From Dioscorea cayenensis subsp. rotundata (lineage: Eukaryota > Streptophyta > Magnoliopsida > Dioscoreales > Dioscoreaceae), in assembly GCF_009730915.1 (NCBI RefSeq), contig NC_052475.1, positions 25,047,016-25,111,015 of the forward strand: a stretch of 64,000 nt of DNA. Direction: 5' to 3'. Position numbers and translations under genes: made by a program. Positions 5,647 through 35,545 of the stretch are shown here, one piece after another; position 1 is the first letter of the stretch, and every line of letters starts with the position of its first letter. The notes beneath the pieces were generated by a model. It was not told the origin of the DNA. It saw only the letters and a list, made by a program, of their open reading frames with translations, and did no database searches.

Positions 5647-7095
5647 CTACTTAATCTTCTGAACAAAAGCGCAAATGTTGATAAGCCCACCGTCAGGATA
5701 CTTAGAGAAGTACCCTTCCATCAAGCTACTATACCTCTCAAACAGTTCATCCATTATTTCTGCTCCAAAGTGACTCACAAATAATGATTCTGAGCCTGCC
5801 CTCATGCTCTTGACCGTTCTTTGAGCAGTGGTTGCATTCTCTTCAACCTTACAATGTTCACAGGCATGATCTCTTGCTTCACCCCATCCAACATCAAACA
5901 TCCTTATGCTTTTTATGGCAAACGATCCTTCTCTTTTGATAGCATTCTTCACTTCCTTTGAAGTAGGTGCGTAGAATGGCAGATTAAACGAATCTATTTT
6001 CTCCGTCTCCACAATGCCCTGCATGCATGCATCATAGACAACGTACGTCTTCGTGTGAGAGTGCATGCATGCATTCATGTATCCATGTATATATTCATGG
6101 ATCCATGAAGATGTATATATATATATATATACATACCTGGGAGGCCATATCCATGAGTGCTTGTGCCAAGAGCTCCCAGTGGAGGTAGATACCTTCAACA
6201 GAGGGATCTTCATCTTTCCTTGCAACCAGTGTAAACACCATGCAACCATCGTGAATCAGTTCTTCAGCTCGGCATTTGAGAAACTGCGAGAAATCTCTCT
6301 CGAACTGTTTGGTGTATGCCTCTAATACAAAAGGAGGACTTGTTTTGGAGATGCTTACATTTCCTTTGTTTAGCCCGTTTTGGAGCTCCAGAGGAACCTA
6401 TGATGCCAAATGGTAGGCTTGTTTAATTTGTCCTCTTATTGGTTAAGTGTTAGATCAGAAACTTCTAATAAAACCATTTTTAGCTACCTATGAACAAGAC
6501 CGAAACAGAAAATATATGATCGTTTTCATGATCTCGAAAAGAAAAGTTGACCTGAGAAAGCCAGTGGAGGCATGTGGAAGAGTGGACAAAATGAATTGTC
6601 TGGGTGGGAAACAAGCGGCCATAGAATGAACCAGGAGCCACTGAGATGAAACAAGGGTGACTCCTTTTGAAGTCTTCAAATGATCCAATGAGTCCATTGA
6701 AATCATTGCTTGGTAGGTCATTCAACATTATATGAATCTCTGGCAATGACTTCTGGTTGAGCTCCTTGCACACTGACTCCACTGCATCAATGGCATCAGA
6801 GACTGCAACCAAGGTATTAGGTCCTGAAGAACAACCTAAGTCTGCAATGGTCATGACCTTAGGAGAGGATGTGTTCTTGAATGCTTCCATCATTGCTCTT
6901 TCCCTCTCTGTCTTGGTCAATGGTTGTATCAAACTCTGCAAAATATACTAGAAGTCGTTACACGCGCGCGCGCACGAACGCACAAATTTTTTATGTAAGG
7001 AGATCGAAAGAGTAAATCACTTGGATTGTGGAGTTCTTGGCGTAGCTCATGTCATCGTTGCCACCATTCATGTGAAGAACTTGCTCAACTTCCAT
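5647..7095 (-). CDS. SABATH family carboxyl/N-methyltransferase, copy 1
   Basis: SABATH enzymes transfer a methyl group from S-adenosylmethionine to carboxylates such as salicylic or jasmonic acid, or to ring nitrogens as in caffeine synthesis, in the cytosol. Exons on the minus strand are 7095-7021, 6935-6552, 6397-6137 and 6018-5647. All borders are GT-AG, giving 363 residues and a TAG stop, the normal family length. Visible motifs are NSTIQ at the end of exon 1 (the Gln that binds carboxylate substrates in salicylate methyltransferase), DLGCSSGPNT (SAM binding), LNDLPSNDFN, GSFYGRLFP and HSSTCLHWLSQVP. The His before Trp, where salicylate methyltransferases usually have Met, argues for a substrate other than salicylate, but this is inference. 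The start MEVEQVLHMNGG matches the family N-terminus. Confidence 0.9.
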
Positions 7096-7177
7096 GTTGG
7101 CCCTTGAAATTGTGTAATATAAGGAGCAATTGTTTTGGTACCTATGAAAATTATGATATGAGATGACGAGTGGGTTC

Positions 7178-7185
7178 TTTATATA
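7178..7185 (-). promoter_or_regulatory. TATA box of SABATH copy 1
   Basis: The complement reads tatataaa about 85 bases upstream of the ATG at 7095. The corresponding position in the second copy (around 15232-15241) also reads as a TATA box with one changed base. The spacing allows a leader of roughly 50-60 bases. Confidence 0.55.
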
Positions 7186-7355
7186 GGGAAGCAAGGCATG
7201 TTAGTTTTAATATGAGTTTTTAATCAATTTAAATAATTAATTTAAATGAAACATGTGCACTTAATTAGTACATAGGTATAAAGAACCTGGAATGATTGTT
7301 ATAACTTATAACTACGTTATCATGTGTTAGATAGGTTTTAGTCGAATGAATATTA

Positions 7356-8035
7356 GGCATCTCTAACTATGATCCCAAATTCTAAATTTGGGGTCATAAT
7401 TATTAGCTAAAATCCATCCCAAATATTACTTCAAATTTGAAGTTTGGGAGTGGATGACCCCAAATTTGGGGTTTATTTGTGATCCCAAACTTGAGGTCCC
7501 ACACATATATTATTTTTTTAATTAATATTTTTTTTATTTTTATTATTGTAATTAAAATTATAAAGTTAATAATTCATGAATATAATTATAAGTAGTCAAT
7601 TTTTACTTACAATATTAATGAATTAATTTCTTGTACAATTAATTATTTAATAATAAAATTGTTAAATCAATTAATTTATGATAAATTTATTAAATTGAAA
7701 TAGTTAAAAATATATTATAAACAATGAAAGGCACATGCACTATGAATTTAAAACAAAATACATTCATAATAATATTGATAATACTGCATAAATAAACAAA
7801 GCCATTAAATAGCCTTAATAAAAACTAATGCAATGTAAAATTAATTAAATTATTGTTAAAAGTAATTAATTTCAAGTATTTTTTGATTAAACAGTAATAA
7901 TAATAATAAAAGGATGTGTAAGGAATATTTTCGAAAATATACTTTTTTGGGGTAAAATTTGGGGTTTGGGGTTGGAGTATAATTTACTGTAGTAAAATCA
8001 AATTTAGGATTTCGGGTTGTGGGTTGGAGATGGCC
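7356..8035. mobile_element. Harbinger/Tourist-like MITE, copy in first duplicate
   Basis: This is about 680 bp with imperfect terminal inverted repeats. The left end is ggcatctctaactatgatcc and the right end, read inverted, starts ggccatctccaaccca. The interior is AT-rich and non-coding, with repeated words such as ccccaaatttggggt near both ends. Flanking bases are tta on the left and taa on the right, so the 3-bp target duplication expected for Harbinger is not exact. The same element sits at the same place in the second duplicate (15406-16482), so it predates the duplication. Confidence 0.6.
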
Positions 8036-10702: not shown

Positions 10703-11702
10703 NNNNNNNNNNNNNNNNNNNNNNNNNNNNNNNNNNNNNNNNNNNNNNNNNNNNNNNNNNNNNNNNNNNNNNNNNNNNNNNNNNNNNNNNNNNNNNNNNN
10801 NNNNNNNNNNNNNNNNNNNNNNNNNNNNNNNNNNNNNNNNNNNNNNNNNNNNNNNNNNNNNNNNNNNNNNNNNNNNNNNNNNNNNNNNNNNNNNNNNNNN
10901 NNNNNNNNNNNNNNNNNNNNNNNNNNNNNNNNNNNNNNNNNNNNNNNNNNNNNNNNNNNNNNNNNNNNNNNNNNNNNNNNNNNNNNNNNNNNNNNNNNNN
11001 NNNNNNNNNNNNNNNNNNNNNNNNNNNNNNNNNNNNNNNNNNNNNNNNNNNNNNNNNNNNNNNNNNNNNNNNNNNNNNNNNNNNNNNNNNNNNNNNNNNN
11101 NNNNNNNNNNNNNNNNNNNNNNNNNNNNNNNNNNNNNNNNNNNNNNNNNNNNNNNNNNNNNNNNNNNNNNNNNNNNNNNNNNNNNNNNNNNNNNNNNNNN
11201 NNNNNNNNNNNNNNNNNNNNNNNNNNNNNNNNNNNNNNNNNNNNNNNNNNNNNNNNNNNNNNNNNNNNNNNNNNNNNNNNNNNNNNNNNNNNNNNNNNNN
11301 NNNNNNNNNNNNNNNNNNNNNNNNNNNNNNNNNNNNNNNNNNNNNNNNNNNNNNNNNNNNNNNNNNNNNNNNNNNNNNNNNNNNNNNNNNNNNNNNNNNN
11401 NNNNNNNNNNNNNNNNNNNNNNNNNNNNNNNNNNNNNNNNNNNNNNNNNNNNNNNNNNNNNNNNNNNNNNNNNNNNNNNNNNNNNNNNNNNNNNNNNNNN
11501 NNNNNNNNNNNNNNNNNNNNNNNNNNNNNNNNNNNNNNNNNNNNNNNNNNNNNNNNNNNNNNNNNNNNNNNNNNNNNNNNNNNNNNNNNNNNNNNNNNNN
11601 NNNNNNNNNNNNNNNNNNNNNNNNNNNNNNNNNNNNNNNNNNNNNNNNNNNNNNNNNNNNNNNNNNNNNNNNNNNNNNNNNNNNNNNNNNNNNNNNNNNN
11701 NN
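10703..11702. other. Assembly gap of 1,000 N
   Basis: Exactly 1,000 unknown bases, the kind of fixed-size spacer used by scaffolding software, so the real distance is unknown. A LINE reverse transcriptase runs into its left side. An LTR-like sequence emerges on the right, so repeats probably caused the break. Confidence 0.98.
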
Positions 11703-13703: not shown

Positions 13704-15151
13704 CTACTTAATCTTCTGAACAAAAGCGCAAATGTTGGTAAGCCCACCGTCAGGATACATAGAGAAGTACCCTTCCATCAAGCTACTATACCTCTCAAAC
13801 AGTTCATCCATTATTTCTGCTCCAAAGTGACTCACAAATAATGATTCTGAGCCTGCCCTCATGCTCTTGACCGTTATTTGAGCAGTGGTTGCATTCTCTT
13901 CAACCTTACAATGTTCACAGGCATGATCTCTTGCTTCACCCCATCCAACATCAAACATCCTTATGCTTTTAATGGCAAACGATCCTTCTCTTTTGATAGC
14001 ATTCTTCACTTCCTTTGATGTAGGTGCGTAGAATGGCAGATTAAACGAATCTATTTTCTCCGTCTCCACAATGCCCTGCATGCATGCATCATAGACAACG
14101 TCTTCGTGTGAGAGTGCATGCATGCATTCATGTATCCATGTATATATTCATGGATCCATGAAGATGTATATATATACATACCTGGGAGGCCATATCCATT
14201 AGTGCTTGTGCCAAGAGCTCCCAGTGGAGGTAGATACCTTCAACAGAGGGATCTTCATCTTTCCTTGCAACCAGTGTAAACACCATGCAACCATCGTGAA
14301 TCAGTTCTTCAGCTCGGCATTTGAGAAACTGCGAGAAATCTCTCTCGAACTGTTTGGTGTATGCCTCTAATACAAAAGGAGGACTTGTTTTGGAGATGCT
14401 TACATTTCCTTTGTTTAGCCCTGTTTTTGGAGCTCCAGAGGAACCTATGATGCCAAAATGGTAGGCTTGTTTAATTTGTCCTCTTATTGGTTAAGTGTTA
14501 GATCAGAAACTTCTAATAAAAACCATTTTTTTAGCTACCTATGAACAAGACCGAAACAGAAAAATATATGATCGTTTTTCATGATCTCGAAAAAGAAAAA
14601 GTTGACCTGAGAAAGCCAGTGGAGGCATGTGGAAGAGTGGACAAAAATGAATTGTCTGGGTGGGAAACAAGCGGCCATAGAATGAACCAGGAGCCACTGA
14701 GATGAAACAAGGGTGACTCCTTTTGAAGTCTTCAAATGATCCAATGAGTCCATTGAAATCATTGCTTGGTAGGTCATTCAACATTATATGAATCTCTGGC
14801 AATGACTTCTGGTTGAGCTCCTTGCACACTGACTCCACTGCATCAATGGCATCAGAGACTGCAACCAAGGTATTAGGTCCTGAAGAACAACCTAAGTCTG
14901 CAATGGTCATGACCTTAGGAGAGGATGTGTTCTTGAATGCTTCCATCATTGCTCTTTCCCTCTCTGTCTTGGTCAATGCTTGTATCAAACTCTGCAAAAT
15001 ATACTAGAAGTCGTTACACGCGCGCGCGCACGAACGCACAAATTTTTTATGTAAGGAGATCGAAAGAGTAAATCACTTGGATTGTGGAGTTCTTGGCGTA
15101 GCTCATGTCATCGTTGCCACCATTCATGTGAAGAACTTGCTCAACTTCCAT
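13704..15151 (-). CDS. SABATH methyltransferase, copy 2, with scrambled active-site segment
   Basis: This is a near-identical copy of the gene at 5647-7095 with the same four exons: 15151-15077, 14991-14607, 14444-14182 and 14075-13704. Exon 2 is one base longer and exon 3 two bases longer than in copy 1. The first insertion shifts the frame just after PTQTIHF, and the second restores it before LNKGNVSIS. The frame is therefore open for 364 residues, but about 20 residues including the conserved HSSTCLHWLSQVP are replaced by unrelated ones. The enzyme as written should be inactive. Every homopolymer in the surrounding 230 bases is longer than in copy 1, so a consensus error is a serious alternative. 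Other differences are few, for example Lys to Met and Ile to Thr near the C-terminus. Confidence 0.75.
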
Positions 15152-15231
15152 GTTGGCCCTTGAAATTGTGTAATATAAGGAGCAATTGTTTTGGTACCTA
15201 TGAAAATTATGATATGAGATGACGAGTGGGT

Positions 15232-15241
15232 TATTTATATA
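15232..15241 (-). promoter_or_regulatory. TATA box of SABATH copy 2
   Basis: The complement reads tatataaata about 85 bases upstream of the ATG at 15151. It is in the same position as in copy 1 and differs by one base. Its conservation suggests that copy 2 kept its promoter. Confidence 0.5.
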
Positions 15242-15405
15242 GGGATGCAAGGCATGTTAGTTTTAATATGAGCTTTTTAATCAATTTAAATAATTAATTT
15301 GAATGAAACATGTGCACTTAATTAGTACATAGGTATAAAGAACCTGGAATGAATGTTATAACTATGTTATCATGTGTTAGATAGGTTTTAGTCGAATGAA
15401 TATTA

Positions 15406-16482
15406 GGCATCTCTAACTATATGATCCCAAATCCTAAATTTTGGAGTCATAATTATTATTATTTTTTAAAATAAATGTGGATAAACCACAGATTTATTGA
15501 AAAGAAAATAACAGTACAAAGTAGGAAACTCCTCCCACCAAGGGTGGGGAGAAACAAAAAACAACAAAAGGAAGTAAAAAAGACGAGGAGAATAATCTAG
15601 GTAGGCGGAAAACACCGTCTGGCATCTCAAGCCTTCCTAGATAGACAGCAGGAGCAACTACTCCTAAGCAGCGTCAGCAACAAGGTCAGAATCGCCAGCA
15701 GGGTTAGAGACTCTAGCGCTGAGGAAGTTGAGTGAGCGCTTAATCTTCTGAGAAGCTTCATTGAGTGATTGCTGATGGCTATCAGCAGCTGTTGAGAACC
15801 AAGAAAGAAGTGAGGTCATAATTATTAGCTCCAATCCATCCCAAATATTACTTCAAATTTGAAGTTTTGGGGTGGGGGTCCCCAAATTTGAGGTTTATTT
15901 GTGATCCCAAATTTGAGGTCCCACGCATATATTATTTTTTTAATTAATATTTTTATTATTATTATAATTAAAATTATAAAGTTAATAATTCATGAATATA
16001 ATTATAAGTAGTCAATTTTTACTTACAATATTAATTAATTAATTTCTTGTACAATTAATTATTTAATAATAAAATTGTTAAATAAATTAATTTATGATAA
16101 ATTTATTGAATTGAAATAGTTAAAAATATATTATAAACAATGAAAGGCACATGCACTACGAATTTAAAACAAAATACATTCATAATAATATTGATAATGC
16201 TGCATAAACATTCTCCGATAATAAACAAAGGCATTAAATAACCTTAATAAAAACTAATGCAATGTAAAACTAATTAAATTATTGTTAAAAATAATTAATT
16301 TCAAATATTTTTTGATTAAATAGTAGTAGTAGTAGTAATAATAATAATAATAATAAAAGGATGTGTAAGGAATATTTTAGAAAATACACTTTTTTGGGGT
16401 AAAATTTGGAGTTTGGGGTTGGAGTATAATTTACTGTAGTAAAATCAAATTTAGGATTTCAGGTTGTGGGTTGGAGATGGCC
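15406..16482. mobile_element. Harbinger-like MITE, copy in second duplicate
   Basis: This is the same MITE as 7356-8035, interrupted by the LINE insertion at 15459-15814. It has the same terminal words ggcatctctaactat and ggttggagatggcc. A tag/taa triplet tract at about 16321-16356 is longer than in the first copy. Confidence 0.6.
15459..15814 (-). mobile_element. 5'-truncated LINE insertion with 13-bp target duplication
   Basis: The insertion is flanked by perfect direct repeats gtcataattatta at 15446-15458 and 15815-15827. The uninterrupted target is present in the first duplicate. On the minus strand it ends in an oligo-A tail preceded by ctgtggtttatccaca, the tail motif shared with other LINEs here. 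Its body encodes only the last part of ORF2. All features fit target-primed reverse transcription with early stop. It is non-functional. Confidence 0.9.
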
Positions 16483-22342: not shown

Positions 22343-23049
22343 ATAAATTTAGTGGAAATTGCCAAAAAAACCCTTTAAGTTTGTAAAATTGCCAAAAACA
22401 CCCCATTAGTTTTGCAATCCCCAAAATTCCCCTCCTTTTAAACTCTATGTTTTTCAAACCCCCAAACCCTGTAACGGATGTGAACGGAGTGAGTTTCAAA
22501 TTTTTTGGACGAAAATGCCTTTGCATGGGGAGTCGTGGCTGCAGCCATCTCGGCGATTTGAGAGGAAGTGGGCGGTTTTCCGTAGGGGTAACCCCGAGAG
22601 CAATTTATTGGAGCCGCTTTAATTGCTTTTTCTCAACTCACGCCTTCGACTTTTTCCATTTCAAGCTGTCTCCGAGTTGTCTCTACCGCGAAGCCTCCGT
22701 AATCGGCATTTCATCGCCTTTTCCCTTTCCACCCGTGATCTCGAAGGAGAAGTCCTCCCGCTAGACTAGTTGGCATTTCATCGCTTTGAAATCTAAGGTA
22801 TTGAGTATGGTTTTTATGTTAACTGCTGCTACAAAAGAAAGATTTTTTTCGGTTTTGTTTTGTGCTCCTGCTTTTTGTTGGAAGATATCGAAGTCTGCAG
22901 GGGGATTTCTACTGGGGTTTTTGTTAGTCTGCAGGGAGATTTCTCGTCTGGGGTTTTTGTTTTTATTTTTGCATTTTCGTATGTATACACTATCGAATTA
23001 GTTTTTTTCGATTGTTATGATTTGTGTAATATTTATAATGTACATTTCC

Positions 23050-23252
23050 GCTTTCGCTTTGATATGGTTGAAGTTTTACAAATGAGGGTTGACGTTTAAG
23101 AAATGAGATGTTACGCTTTTAACATTTGTTGTCCCCTGCTTTAAGTATTCTCGCCTCTGCTTTAACAAAATGGGTCTCTGCTTTAACATTTTTATATCTC
23201 TCGCTTTAATAACTGAGAGTTTACCGTTTAAAACCTTATATTTCCGCTTAAA
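23050..23252 (+). repeat. Phased GTTTAA/GCTTTAA array 1
   Basis: Variants of gYtttaa begin at 23050, 23073, 23094, 23115, 23138, 23159, 23180, 23203, 23226 and 23246, spacings of 20-23 bases. The sequence between the cores is not conserved. The array lies just upstream of the coding remnant at 23353. Confidence 0.75.
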
Positions 23253-23352
23253 CTTTTGTCAATACTGCATGTTGAATGTGTTGTTATTGTCGCAGGCTTG
23301 TGATTATGGCGGTCAATGTTGAATGTGTTGTTATTGTCTCAGGCTTGTGATT

Positions 23353-24662
23353 ATGGCGGTCAACCTAGTTAATGGCCAATGCTATTTGACACCCGTGAGT
23401 GGAGACTTTAGTCGAATTGAAAAAAATAACATGACCCCTATGACATCGGGAGATTATTCGACGGACACCGCTTTGCGCTGCTCATCGAGCTAGAAGCTAT
23501 ATACCAAGAGAGAGCCCTTCTTGATTCTCTTTTTGCAAAGGTACGATGGTCGCACCAATAAATTCGGGATCGGGGAAAAGCTCGCTGAGTTTCGAGACCT
23601 CAAGATATGGCCCTCGTGCTTGGTCTCAGCGTTGCGACGGCGACGCAGCTGGTCTTTCAAAAGAAGAAAAACCGGTCGGCGTCGAAGGGCGGTATCTATC
23701 AAAGACCCTACGAGAGACACGAGACTCCATCAAGAGCACTCGTTGCAACTTGTTCGACTGGAGGGAGAAAAAAGATAATTTCGTCAAACTCCGATGGTGT
23801 ACCTCATGGGGACGATCCCTCTTCCCAAATACATCATGCTCGGTTCGAATCGGATCATTGATTATGTCGATGATCTACCGACCCATGAGGGCGATACGCG
23901 ATGGGCGCAGGGCGACGCACAAGTGGCTTATGGAGGATATTCCACAAGCAGCCGCCCGAGTGCAAGATAGATGCGCCGGGAAGAAGACCAACACAGGGTA
24001 CATTAAGGGTTGCTCGGTCGCGCTTAACGTCTGGTTTTACGAGCTGACCGGAACGGGGAAGAAAGTCCGTTTCGGCAAGATCCCAAGGATGTTGTGCTAC
24101 GGTGAAAGTACTTACCGGAAGCAAGCGACGGTAGAAACGAGCTTGTCATCGCTCGATGGAAAAGAGGTAATAAATCATGGACAATGTTTAACATAAGTCT
24201 TTAACGTTTAAACATTTTATTTAGCGTTTAACTTTAGTATTTACCGTTTAACTCTTATTCATACTGGTTTAAATATTTTGTTCTCCGTTTAATTATATTC
24301 TATAACGTTTAAATATATAAACACTCTGTTTAAATATAGTTTTTATAGTTTAAAATGAATGATTTCGCTGAAATTGTTTGGTTTACATATGTTAGTTTCC
24401 TGAGCTGGTTCCGGCGAATGCTGAAGAAGAAATATTTGTTGGGGCCAACCGACGGATGGATGCCATTGCTCCGGAACCACTTGCTCGAAGGCAGGATGAG
24501 AGGGCAGCCTACTTCCAGCCCACCACGCGCACGCATTCCTCGACGCCGGAGAAGCCCTCCCCTACCCCGGCAGATTGCAACAACCCCCCCTACCACGACA
24601 ACGCCCTCAATGCCTTCCCAAGTCTGACATTGGCTTTCATAAAATTGGCCTCCCAAGTCTGA
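23353..24662 (+). pseudogene. DUF1985 / Ulp1-type gene remnant carried by the Mutator-like element
   Basis: Two exon-like blocks are visible. The first (about 23353-24170) encodes FGIGEKLAEFR, then LVLGLSV, GRYLSKTLRETRDSI, FPNTSCSV, ATHKWLMEDIPQAAARVQ and GCSVALNVWFYELTG. This series is typical of the DUF1985 domain found in front of Ulp1-like cysteine proteases in plant Mutator-like elements. These motifs lie in three frames, so at least two frameshifts and a stop disrupt it. The second block (about 24403-24660) is a Pro/Thr-rich linker. No Ulp1 His-Asp-Cys protease core is present, so the gene is both broken and truncated. Family assignment is from motif recall, not a search. Confidence 0.6.
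24186..24356 (+). repeat. Phased GTTTAA array 2, 20-21 bp period
   Basis: The core gtttaa starts at 24186, 24206, 24226, 24246, 24267, 24287, 24307, 24328 and 24348, spacings of 20, 20, 20, 21, 20, 20, 21 and 20. Bases between cores are AT-rich and not conserved. The array lies between the two coding blocks of the DUF1985 remnant, where an intron would be. Confidence 0.9.
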
Positions 24663-24762
24663 ATTCCTGCCAACACTTCAGTCAAATAAAAAGATCAATA
24701 TTGACGGACATATTTACACAATAATGACCCCAGACAACTGGAATAATTAAAAGAAAAGGAAC

Positions 24763-25188
24763 TTACAACGAGTAAACCTCGTTTTCATTAGGATTCGGCA
24801 ATGACACATTTTCTGTCTCAACGACAAGATCAACTACAGCACATTTGAAGATGGAGTGGACGTGACACATCCGCTGGAAGTCAACATCGTTTTCTATTGG
24901 GCAAACCGTTTTATATCCATCTGGTGTGATGAACTTAACCCTGACAAGAGAAACTTCGAGACCCCATCGCTCACATATCTCAGCTAACACCAACTCCCAA
25001 GAAGTCTGAGCAGTGAACATTAGCACCCTTCCCTCCCCGTTGAATCTAGCAATACCACAAAAAAACTCTCCATAATATATCGGTCGAAAACCAAATCGTA
25101 CAAACCAAATGAAGTGAAGAACAAAAAGAAGACGAAGAAGAAGAAGTAGAAGATGTAAAGAACAAACAGCAGTCAGAAAGACAAACAA
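24763..25188 (-). pseudogene. Mutator-type transposase N-terminal fragment
   Basis: On the minus strand, after a hydrophobic low-complexity start, the frame reads GRVLMFTAQTSWELVLAEICERWG, then VKFITPDGYKTVCPIENDVDF and HVHSIFKCAVVDLVVE. This pattern is familiar from the first exon of plant mudrA-like transposases. The DNA-binding, DDE and SWIM domains that should follow are missing. The element continues directly into the 3' end of the DUF1985 remnant, which converges on it. The Leu/Phe-rich first 40 residues probably come from leader sequence and are not a signal peptide. Confidence 0.5.
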
Positions 25189-25379
25189 AAAAAGTGCACG
25201 ATTGTATGCATAGAGGTTAGACTAGGCGTGATGTGATTGGGCGGTATTTTTTTCCCTCCATCCCAAGGGCAAAAAGGGAAATATATGTCATCTGTCGCGA
25301 GGAAGACATATTGTCATCGTTCGAATGAATGTTCTCAACTCAACATGAGTCTCCGTATAAGCGTCAAGCTTTTTTTATG

Positions 25380-25696
25380 TTTAAACAGATACATATAGTG
25401 TTTAAAAATAATTGTTAAGCTGTTTAACTAAAGTCTATATCATGTAAATAATATGTTATTGTTTAAATTGAATGCTTTCACCGACATCGCGTTGAAGATG
25501 GGTACCTCCTGGGTCACTGTTTAAACATCTTTACGTATTTTCTTAAACACCGTTGTCATTGTTTAAAGAGTAACTAGAGTATTGTTTAACTTTTTTTCTA
25601 TTGTTTACACCGTTGTCATTGTTTAAAGAGTAACTTTTTTTCTTAAACACCGTTGTCATTTGTTTAAACATATTTACGTATTTTCTATTGTTTACA
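25380..25696 (+). repeat. Phased GTTTAA array 3 with short tandem duplication
   Basis: Cores gtttaa or cttaaac recur at about 25380, 25400, 25422, 25461, 25519, 25542, 25561, 25584, 25603, 25621, 25642, 25662 and 25690, mostly 18-23 bases apart. Within it, a unit containing caccgttgtcattgtttaaag is repeated two to three times (25547-25660). At the right of the element (26730-26840) the inverted form ttaaac/ttaaag recurs at similar spacing. Confidence 0.7.
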
Positions 25697-25699
25697 ATG

Positions 25700-27072
25700 A
25701 CGTTCTTTTTGTTTCCCACATTGTTTGTTTTTATTAGGTCTATGTTTAAATTTCGAAGTTCACGATCAAATAAGCTTGTTTCGTTTTTATTTATAAAAGA
25801 TTTACAACATTTACAACGTCCGCTCGGACTTTGGACACTCACGACTCGACCCTCGTATAGCGAAACAAGTGTCTGTACATTCGAATGCTCACAGCGGTTT
25901 GCATAACATGCGCATCAACTTGAACCCCGCACTAACGTACAACATTAAAAAAAGGTTAAACAACACACATTCATGAAAACGACTATTAATCAATGTGTCA
26001 TGGTCGGGACTTAAACGAAGATCCCGATAGTTAAACACGTAAGCGTAATAGTTGTACACTAACGTAATGTTCTTAAATGGTAACAGAAAGTCTCAAGTGA
26101 TAAATATCAACCCCGTCTTAAAGGATGTTTCACGATCTCCTCCTCTAGAGAATCCTCCGCAATCACGAAATACGTGAAAAAAATTTCTTTTCTTACCCAA
26201 GTCGAAATGCTCGCTTAATTGCTTGCCCGTCATCCACATCGAAGAATCCTCGCGATTCGAGGCAATTATGAGAGCATTTCGACTCAAGCGAAAAAGATAG
26301 TTTAACTTGTTGCGTGATTGCGGCTAAATGATTCTCAAGATAAGGAAGAAGGTTCACGAAACATCCTTTCGAGATAGAGTGGTTGTCCGTGGGAAGAGGA
26401 GGACGAGGAGGAGGAGGAGGATGATGAGGGACGACGAGGAGTGGTTGTCCATGGGGAGGGTTCTTTTCCGGTTATTTATGGTGTGAATTCCACGAGCGGT
26501 GACTCTTCATATCCGAGAAAAAAAGTTAAAGCGCACGATGGCCGACATTGGTCGATGAGAACGAGCGGGTGTTCGGAAAAATTATGTTACCGTGCATAAA
26601 TTTTAATGCCGTCATTAATTCTTATGCACGGGATACCATAACCTTGCCACCGCCACGTGCCACCCTGCCAGAATTCGGATCAAAGCGAAAAAGATCACCG
26701 CTTTTCTGCGAGACTTTTGAGAATTTACACGTTAATATGAATAGTTATACATGTAAAGATAACGTTAAAGCGGAGATGGGAAGTATTACACGGATATGAT
26801 AATTATTAAACATATTAGTAAAAATATTTAAAGCGTTAAACCAAGCGAAAAGCCCTTCAAAAAGGTTGAACATGATGTGATTTGGCGCTTTCCTTTCCCA
26901 CCATTTTTCGGGGCCAAAAATGGGATTTCACAACATGGACCCATTTGAAGTGAGCAGATAGGGGGTAAAAGGGAAGTTAAACACTAACGGAAGGGCTGTC
27001 CGGGGTGTGCAAAAGTAGGAGGGGGTTTTTGGGAAGTTTTGAAAATTACGAGGGGTGAACAGTAATTTTCCC
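25700..27072. other. Right arm of the Mutator-like element, non-coding
   Basis: There is no recognisable gene. It contains a purine-rich gag/gga repeat at 26395-26440, inverted-orientation ttaaac cores at 26730-26840, and a copy of tgatgtgatttggcg at 26873 that also occurs at 25229. The terminal 150 bases form the inverted repeat. Confidence 0.5.
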
Positions 27073-27398
27073 ATAAATTTATCATAAGTACCCCATATAT
27101 ATAAAAGAAGTCAGAGACATACACAAATGTGAAGCATAACCGCAAATTTAACAAACATCTATGCCCTCATCTTACATGAAAATTGAGAATATATATATAT
27201 ATATTCTTTGTTTAACCCATTTTAAAGCCCATAGAAATAGATAGAATCAAACGGTAAGTCTGTCTGTCTTCTTATCAATAGTTAATGTTAGAAAACTTTT
27301 AATATAACTATTATTGATTAGCAAGTCTATGCACGGGTACATGTCGATGTGAGTGACAAATAGAAAATGAGTTTATCCATGTGCTCAATAAAATTGAC

Positions 27399-29276: not shown

Positions 29277-30003
29277 TGATAATCACTATATGGAAACTAA
29301 AGATCAAGAGAAGCAACTTTTGTATTCAAAGTAAAACATAAAACTCACCCAATTATCCTTGAAAATTCACACAAGCACACAGTGTATATCAGAAACAACT
29401 TTTGTATTCAAAGTAAAACATAAAACTAACCCAATTATCTTTGAAAATTCACACAAGCACACAGTGTATATCAGAAACCAAAGAAAAAAAAAACCTCTCT
29501 GTTCTAATGAGAAAACACACAATATATTCCTGTAAAAGTTCAGTGACTGAAATGATACAAGCCAGCTTAGTCACACCACACGCGTCAGGTTCTCCTCAGC
29601 TTCACCGCTTAACCGGCTTCCATGCCTCGAACTTAATACAAGTTCCTTGATCATCAAATCACAACCATCCATCAGAAACACAATCCAGGTCTTCTTAGCT
29701 GCCTCGAACTTAAACTTTTTTATCTTTGATGGATTACATCCGAAATGCACGATCACTGACCTAACCCCGATGTTGGGGTTGTTTTTCCTGCCTCAAACTA
29801 TGTGTTCTCTTGATCTTCCAATCCTGGCCACCCATCACCTTCCCTCAGATTCCTCAACCAACTTAACAGACTTTCAAACACAGGAAATGACAAACTACCC
29901 TCTACTTCTAAACTATTTACACCAGGACAATTGAACTGCACTTTCACTGCTTCTTCACTGCAATCTTTTTTGAAATTCGTTCATTCTTCAATCAATTCTA
30001 ACA
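29277..30003 (-). repeat. Copia 3' LTR with internal 82-bp duplication
   Basis: 727 bp, against 645 bp for the other LTR. The difference is accounted for by a tandem duplication of 82 bases at 29315-29396 and 29397-29478, each starting aacttttgtattcaaag. The two units differ at two or three positions. Confidence 0.95.
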
Positions 30004-35146: not shown

Positions 35147-35181
<35 letters not shown>

Positions 35182-35394
35182 ACCATTTTTAAAGGTTGAG
35201 ATTAATGATGCTCATTCTTGTACCATAGAACATACTTGGTGCTGATAATTTAATCTTTTTCTTAAACTTTGTTCTAGCTAGCTCTCTCTCTCTCTCTCAC
35301 CATTTTTAAAGGTTGAGATTAATGATGCTCATTCTTGTACCATAGAACATACTTGGTGCTGATAATTTAATCTTTTTCTGAAACTATGTTCTAG

Positions 35395-35431
<37 letters not shown>

Positions 35432-35545
35432 TCTCACCATTTTTAAAGGTTGAGATTAATGATGCTCATTCTTGTACCACAGAACATACTTGGTGCTGAT
35501 AATTTAATCTTTTTCTGAAACTTTGTTCTAGCTAGCTCATGTTCA
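35147..35545. repeat. Three tandem units of 117-137 bp with CT tracts
   Basis: Each unit starts ccatttttaaaggttgagat (35183, 35300, 35437), ends ttctagctagct or similar, and is preceded by a pure CT microsatellite. Unit length varies with the CT tract. No coding potential is seen. Confidence 0.9.

Follow-up and report, generated by a model that had tools for sequence, protein, structure and literature searches.

A 64,000-nucleotide stretch of the Dioscorea cayenensis subsp. rotundata genome (contig NC_052475.1, positions 25,047,016 to 25,111,015; here called the window and numbered from its first letter) contains a decayed, internally deleted Mutator-like element (MULE) at 22352..27072 in which the short word GTTTAA recurs in phased arrays. 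The 4,721-bp element, which was compared with 20 relatives, is flanked by a perfect 9-bp target-site duplication, ATAAATTTA, at 22343..22351 and 27073..27081, and the ends given in a preliminary description of the window were right. Local alignment of the two ends indicated degenerate terminal inverted repeats at 22370..22515 (plus strand) and 26905..27056 (minus strand), a gapped match of about 150 bp with an alignment score of 34 against a maximum of 21 in 200 single-base shuffles. Between the ends, the plus strand carries a 5′ array (23092..23252), a broken PMD/DUF1985 exon of a VANC-like gene (23353..24172; located by tblastn with the exon of the relative L024), the main GTTTAA array (24186..24353), and a second-exon remnant from the variable region of that gene (24396..24589; tblastn with a piece of the relative L028, 82-86% identity). 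An internal deletion site follows at 24603..24699, and the minus strand then holds a PB1-like remnant on the 5′ side of the transposase gene (24763..25218; Pfam PB1, E = 0.0012, 19.2 bits, below the cut-off of 23.6). A 47-bp unit lies between the 5′ array and the broken exon, repeated twice at 97% identity (23269-23363); because the unit holds codons read MAVNL in relatives, the start region of the DUF1985 gene is duplicated in the window copy. A Pfam search of eight broken frames of the window found no DUF1985, and the domain was seen in relatives only.

The main array consists of nine GTTTAA cores on the plus strand, beginning at 24186, 24206, 24226, 24246, 24267, 24287, 24307, 24328, and 24348. 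The steps of 20, 20, 20, 21, 20, 20, 21, and 20 bp, with a mean of 162/8 = 20.25 bp, reproduce exactly those first described. The array occupies the gap after the DUF1985 exon, which is probably an intron, given open frames on both sides and a GT at the exon end. Within the element slice, GTTTAA occurred 22 times, compared to a mean of 3.2 in 2,000 dinucleotide shuffles, and 11 adjacent pairs were 18-23 bp apart, compared to 0.012 on average, and never more than 2, in the shuffles. Phasing was thus absent from shuffled sequence, and both the number and the spacing of the cores are far outside chance. We conclude that the phased GTTTAA array is real.

The remaining blocks were less regular than had been reported. 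Upstream of the DUF1985 gene, a second block had been placed at 23050-23252, and core-like forms mostly 21-23 bp apart are indeed found there, but exact GTTTAA occurs only at 23094 and 23226, the remainder being GCTTTAA forms, and the steps are 44, 21, 21, 23, and 23. A GTTTAA array occupies the same position in the relatives that we assign below to clade A. At 25379..25749, 5′ of a transposase remnant, GTTTAA cores do recur, but the same-strand steps (21, 22, 39, 58, 42, 23, 37, 41, and 82) are looser than the mostly 18-23 bp reported and inverted TTAAAC cores are interspersed, such that the array has mixed orientation. On the right arm, the inverted forms TTAAAG and TTAAAC are present on the minus strand (26764..26841), but their regularity is weak (steps 41, 22, and 8). 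Finally, the proposal that every core lies on one face of the helix holds only approximately: on a helix of 10.5 bp per turn, each 20.25-bp step would rotate the face by about 26 degrees. A footprint of proteins placed side by side accounts for the mean step of the main block no less well than a rule that keeps the cores strictly on one face.

An array-based search of the genome gave 40 scored copies of 96-100% identity, including the window's own, from 1,663 first-look candidates; as best matches, the 40 are uninformative on average conservation. Stretches of up to 10 kb were taken around 20 of them. At the position corresponding to 24603/24699, 12 of the 20 relatives hold about 4.1-4.9 kb of extra sequence, three others (L011, L013, and L018) hold 2.4-3.3 kb extra, another three (L020, L021, and L024) match again at a point farther to the right, after 2.3-3.8 kb, and two (L010 and L017) show no right part. 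The extra sequence indicates that the window copy is internally deleted.

The longer relatives carry two convergent genes. On the plus strand of L024 and L028 lie a PMD/DUF1985 exon, a variable region in which peptides recur, and a weak match to a C48 (Ulp1-like) protease (E = 4.3e-4 and 20.6 bits in L024, against a cut-off of 20.7; E = 0.0033 and 17.7 bits in L028); the window copy is without the Ulp1-like piece. The minus strand of L028 carries a MuDR/MULE transposase with a SWIM domain (Pfam DBD_Tnp_Mut, 1.6e-22; MULE, 3.5e-20; SWIM, 1.8e-10), of which L024 keeps a remnant, and relatives of the PB1-like remnant lie just 5′ of the L028 transposase exon on the same strand. The peptide KDVSAVDAVA was observed among near-repeated peptides in the variable region between DUF1985 and the protease (L024:4607-5752 and L028:4537-5709). 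The 9-bp target-site duplication and the MuDR/MULE transposase of longer members identify the family as MULEs.

Cores were mapped along the elements. Of 40 core-like sites in L028, some are 5′ of the DUF1985 gene; others fall in the gap that follows its exon, in a second gap, or in the stretch separating the two genes; and the rest occur around the presumed transposase intron (7861-7987), 5′ of the main transposase exon, and, in a single case (8680), well inside a transposase exon. Across 21 elements (the window copy and L009-L028, with bounds set by BLAST and coding stretches by tblastn, several cut at 10 kb and two represented by only 2.2 kb), GTTTAA/TTAAAC occurred 763 times in non-coding sequence (13.2 per kb) versus 48 times in coding sequence (0.61 per kb). 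Among the 60 permutations of its letters, GTTTAA had the highest non-coding count; the runner-up had 204, and the median was 64 non-coding versus 18 coding. These loci were selected by the intron array, and the share of that array in the count is therefore inflated. At other places the steps were centred on 20-22 and 40-42 bp with a wider spread, as judged from step counts and not from Rayleigh fits, which were dominated by single steps. We conclude that the cores are mostly non-coding and that several separate arrays within one element have a common core and pitch.

Loci chosen without regard to arrays were taken from a genome search with Pfam DUF1985, in which 150 of 455 candidates were scored and the 32 best of the 150 were used. 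Two DUF1985 matches were located 215 bp 5′ of a scored array copy. In a scan of these 32 loci for 6-mers recurring at 19-22 bp, the top or joint top word was GTTTAA (or TTTAAA, which overlaps it) in 17 loci, and the top word was TGTGTA (or its overlapping form TGTATA) in six; TTTAGT, with two pairs, led in two loci, and nothing was found in seven. Each of three protein clades had its own word: GTTTAA in clade A (17/17 loci), TGTGTA in clade B (6/6), and CRCTTAA in clade C (2/2), the last selected by eye post hoc. None of the three words was found in the seven loci of clade D. The word matched the clade in all 25 arrayed loci. The groups were named after both kinds of data had been seen, whereas the tree was built from protein alone. 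On that tree, the array word requires three changes, the minimum possible, compared to a shuffled mean of 13.7. A single branch separates each group from the rest, and its support is 100/99 in the case of B, C, and D and 77/65 in the case of A; of the 29 inner branches, 14 are weak.

Spacing and orientation were consistent among the arrayed clades. Adjacent pairs 19-22 bp apart were counted against 100 shuffles: GTTTAA gave 46 pairs upstream and 81 downstream of the exon in clade A (shuffled means, 0.05 and 0.02), TGTGTA gave 6 and 20 in clade B, and CRCTTAA gave 0 and 5 in clade C. Foreign-word pairs at this distance numbered zero in every other combination of clade and word, and no pairs were found in exons. 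Forward and reverse cores numbered 200 and 31 in clade A, 52 and 0 in clade B, and 14 and 0 in clade C. Clade-A steps were 19 (3 times), 20 (84), 21 (24), 22 (16), 40 (15), 41 (9), and 42 (6), with eight others up to 70; clade-B steps were 19 (1), 20 (16), 21 (8), 22 (1), 23 (4), and 38-42 (9); and clade-C steps were 20 (3), 21 (2), 40 (2), 60 (1), and 61 (1). Because copies have inherited steps in common, the counts are not independent of one another, and independent support for the pitch is the agreement of separate arrays (5′, intron, and intergenic) and of separate clades. Neither refuting outcome named in the preliminary description was seen, as other copies of the family are phased and shuffled sequence is not. 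We conclude that a 20-21 bp pitch is common to all three arrayed clades.

Clade D (L029, L033, L034, L037, L053, L056, and L059) is well supported, and no word array was detected within 650 bp of its DUF1985 domain. No word rose above the shuffled maximum there. A lag-20 signal downstream (21 matches; mean, 4.9; standard deviation, 4.3) came from TTTAT in two close copies, L029 and L033, and was discarded.

Cores were conserved relative to the sequence between them. In the intron array of the 17 clade-A copies, mean pairwise identity was 0.903 in core columns and 0.690 in spacers; in the clade-A 5′ array the values were 0.903 and 0.696, with 0.880 in the neighbouring exon, and in the clade-B array they were 0.916 and 0.677. 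Control masks moved by 7-13 bp gave 0.67-0.73, 0.69-0.76, and 0.59-0.73, and the size of the gap between core and spacer is approximate, as the aligner may favour core matches. With cores conserved, spacers diverged, and another word at the same pitch in another clade, a protein-binding spaced-motif array, as distinct from an ordinary minisatellite, is well supported.

The protein whose clade the word follows is related to a known DNA-binding protein. Each of the 16 proteins in alignment A1 has Pfam matches to PMD and DUF1985, and when a profile of 16 DUF1985 proteins was searched against the Protein Data Bank with E up to 1, one sequence matched, VANC21 (9LNJ and 9LNK), at E = 3.3e-5. VANC21 is an anti-silencing protein of an Arabidopsis transposon that binds YAGTATTAY, a word described as dense and same-oriented in the non-coding parts of VANDAL21 (PMC5735166). 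We propose, with a probability of about 0.8, that the arrays serve as DNA target sites for a VANC-like anti-silencing protein that the element family itself encodes in its longer members. The gene would comprise a PMD/DUF1985 domain, a variable region, and an Ulp1-like protease piece, convergent to the transposase. Its product would read GTTTAA, binding many successive cores about two helical turns apart, and would remove or block DNA methylation across the element such that the element's genes are expressed. Other clades of the protein would read TGTGTA and probably CRCTTAA on the same ruler, and each clade would then unlock only its own kin. The window copy, which has lost its coding capacity and kept its arrays, could be unlocked in trans.

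Several observations weigh against this proposal. The homology to VANC21 spans about 190 positions (profile 6-195) at a modest E-value, the predicted structure of the DUF1985 exon (16 sequences) is of low confidence (mean predicted local distance difference test score, 44.8; predicted template modelling score, 0.38), and the protease match does not exceed the Pfam cut-off. Seven of the 32 DUF1985 loci, those of clade D, are arrayless, and thus the domain is not always accompanied by an array. Clade C consists of two close copies with a post hoc word, and the blind scan gave TTTAGT there at about the shuffled level. The 48 sites counted as coding also run counter to it; L028 holds five of these, four at the edges of its presumed transposase intron. 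Lastly, spacers within one array are 0.442 alike versus 0.369 expected by composition (206 pairs), which indicates that repeat ancestry contributes.

One alternative is that the arrays are binding sites for the transposase or for a host factor that takes part in transposition, close to the possible transposase- or host-factor-binding array of the preliminary description. Subterminal transposase-binding repeats in other plant DNA transposons likewise place many short words within a transposon, the arrays here sit in a transposase-bearing element, and one group is found on the 5′ side of the transposase gene. The densest arrays, however, sit inside the element and not at its ends, occupying the gap that follows the DUF1985 exon, the sequence separating the genes, and positions next to the transposase intron, and the word follows the DUF1985 clade, although it may follow the transposase as well. 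We consider this binder unlikely and not the best candidate, as the evidence points to the element's own DUF1985/PMD protein. Even less probable is a general signal for splicing or transcription read by a host factor, which we regard as the weakest of the alternatives: several arrays do lie in introns or 5′ of genes, but others lie between two genes, and clade-specific words in one host genome are unexpected for a single general factor.

Two further explanations dispense with a sequence-specific protein, and both seem very improbable. The arrays could position nucleosomes or bend DNA, as their words are A/T-rich and recur at about two turns, and twice the helical repeat commonly quoted for DNA on nucleosomes comes close to 20.25 bp. 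Bending would nonetheless tolerate many A/T words, whereas exact six-letter words are kept within a clade and swapped between clades, core orientation is one-sided, and nucleosome positioning was unsupported by any test run in this analysis. Alternatively, the arrays could be an old functionless minisatellite maintained by slippage. Tandem Repeats Finder reported a 20-bp period across 24186-24252 (77% matches), the spacers of an array are slightly more alike than chance, and a tandem-repeat origin has been stated for VANC targets (PMC5735166). Against slippage, cores are conserved like the neighbouring exon while spacers are not, and core and pitch are common to several separate arrays of one element. 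Some repeat ancestry is likely, but a functionless minisatellite is rejected as the whole story. We conclude that targets of a VANC-like protein explain the arrays better than do a transposase array, nucleosome positioning, or a general splicing or transcription signal.

A more speculative extension, to which we give somewhat less than even odds, is that the arrays form a two-part code, with a ruler of about 20 bp common to all arrayed clades and an exchangeable 6-8 bp word that each clade has altered. Protein molecules would assemble cooperatively, side by side, at intervals of two turns, which would set the ruler; only long phased arrays and not stray words would trigger anti-silencing, and several mutually blind systems would run in parallel in one genome. 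The family offers a natural experiment, within a single genome, on how a transposon anti-silencing protein and its DNA targets change together, with different words and one pitch.

Elsewhere in the window, the same short tandem units occur twice, about 8.06 kb apart (5895/13952 and 7221/15278) or 8.4 kb apart (7631/16047). The recurring units (5895-7695 and 13952-16101) flank a gap of 1,000 N at 10703-11702, and the recurrence suggests a local duplication. Near-exact tandem duplications were also seen at 29309-29478 (82-bp unit, 96% matches) and at 35165-35538 (117-137-bp units with CT tracts, 96-97%).

The preliminary description knew of no equivalent of the arrays, but there is one in the VANC target arrays of Arabidopsis VANDAL elements (PMC5735166). 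VANDAL elements are listed with 9-bp duplications, and half with PMD or DUF genes (PMC6446971). The yam family shares with VANDAL-type elements its degenerate terminal inverted repeats, a VANC-homologous DUF1985 protein (its frame broken in the window copy), dense same-orientation non-coding words, and different words in related families. Like VANDAL21 (Hiun) and VANDAL6, it is a MULE with a DUF1985 protein whose related families differ in word (PMC5735166 and PMC10398659), and VANC21 and VANC6 are each described as acting on their own element, through short non-coding words that differ between the two (PMC5735166). Dense short words in one orientation occupy introns, intergenic sequence, and terminal non-coding parts in both systems (PMC5735166), and the non-coding regions of VANDAL elements are also reported as targets of host RNA-directed methylation (PMC10398659). 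The near-repeated peptides of L024 and L028 recall the tandem peptide motifs reported in VANC variable regions (PMC5735166).

Kaonashi (KI/KIU) MULEs are described with an Ulp1-like piece opposite in orientation to the transposase (PMC2528002 and PMC13317346), and the weak Ulp1-like match here has that orientation too; they are described as non-TIR (lacking terminal inverted repeats), whereas degenerate terminal repeats are detectable here. Ulp1-bearing VANC genes are said in a 2026 review to act as VANC21 and VANC6 do (PMC13317346). Host MAIN and MAIL1 have the Pfam PMD domain but are host genes that silence transposons, and the accessible text of PMC7156037 makes no mention of VANC or DUF1985, nor was a link to arrays found in it. 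Subterminal transposase-binding repeats differ from the arrays here, which are mostly internal and have a word that tracks the DUF1985 clade.

Within the VANDAL comparison, the words themselves differ, being YAGTATTAY, AGTTGTCC, and AGTTGTAC in Arabidopsis and GTTTAA, TGTGTA, and CRCTTAA here. Tandem repetition is given as the origin of VANC targets, and the Arabidopsis arrays are described as tandem repeats (PMC5735166), whereas here chiefly the core recurs. A fixed pitch was found here; array spacing or periodicity is not mentioned in the main text of PMC5735166, and literature searches of limited depth found no publication on VANC array pitch or on VANC21 structure. The strict pitch may already be known from earlier work. 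A 2026 meeting report refers to unpublished structures of VANC with target DNA that suggest coevolution (PMC12859917). We conclude that the kind of system is already known and that, as far as the literature was accessible, the words, their sorting by clade within one genome, and their strict common pitch are new.

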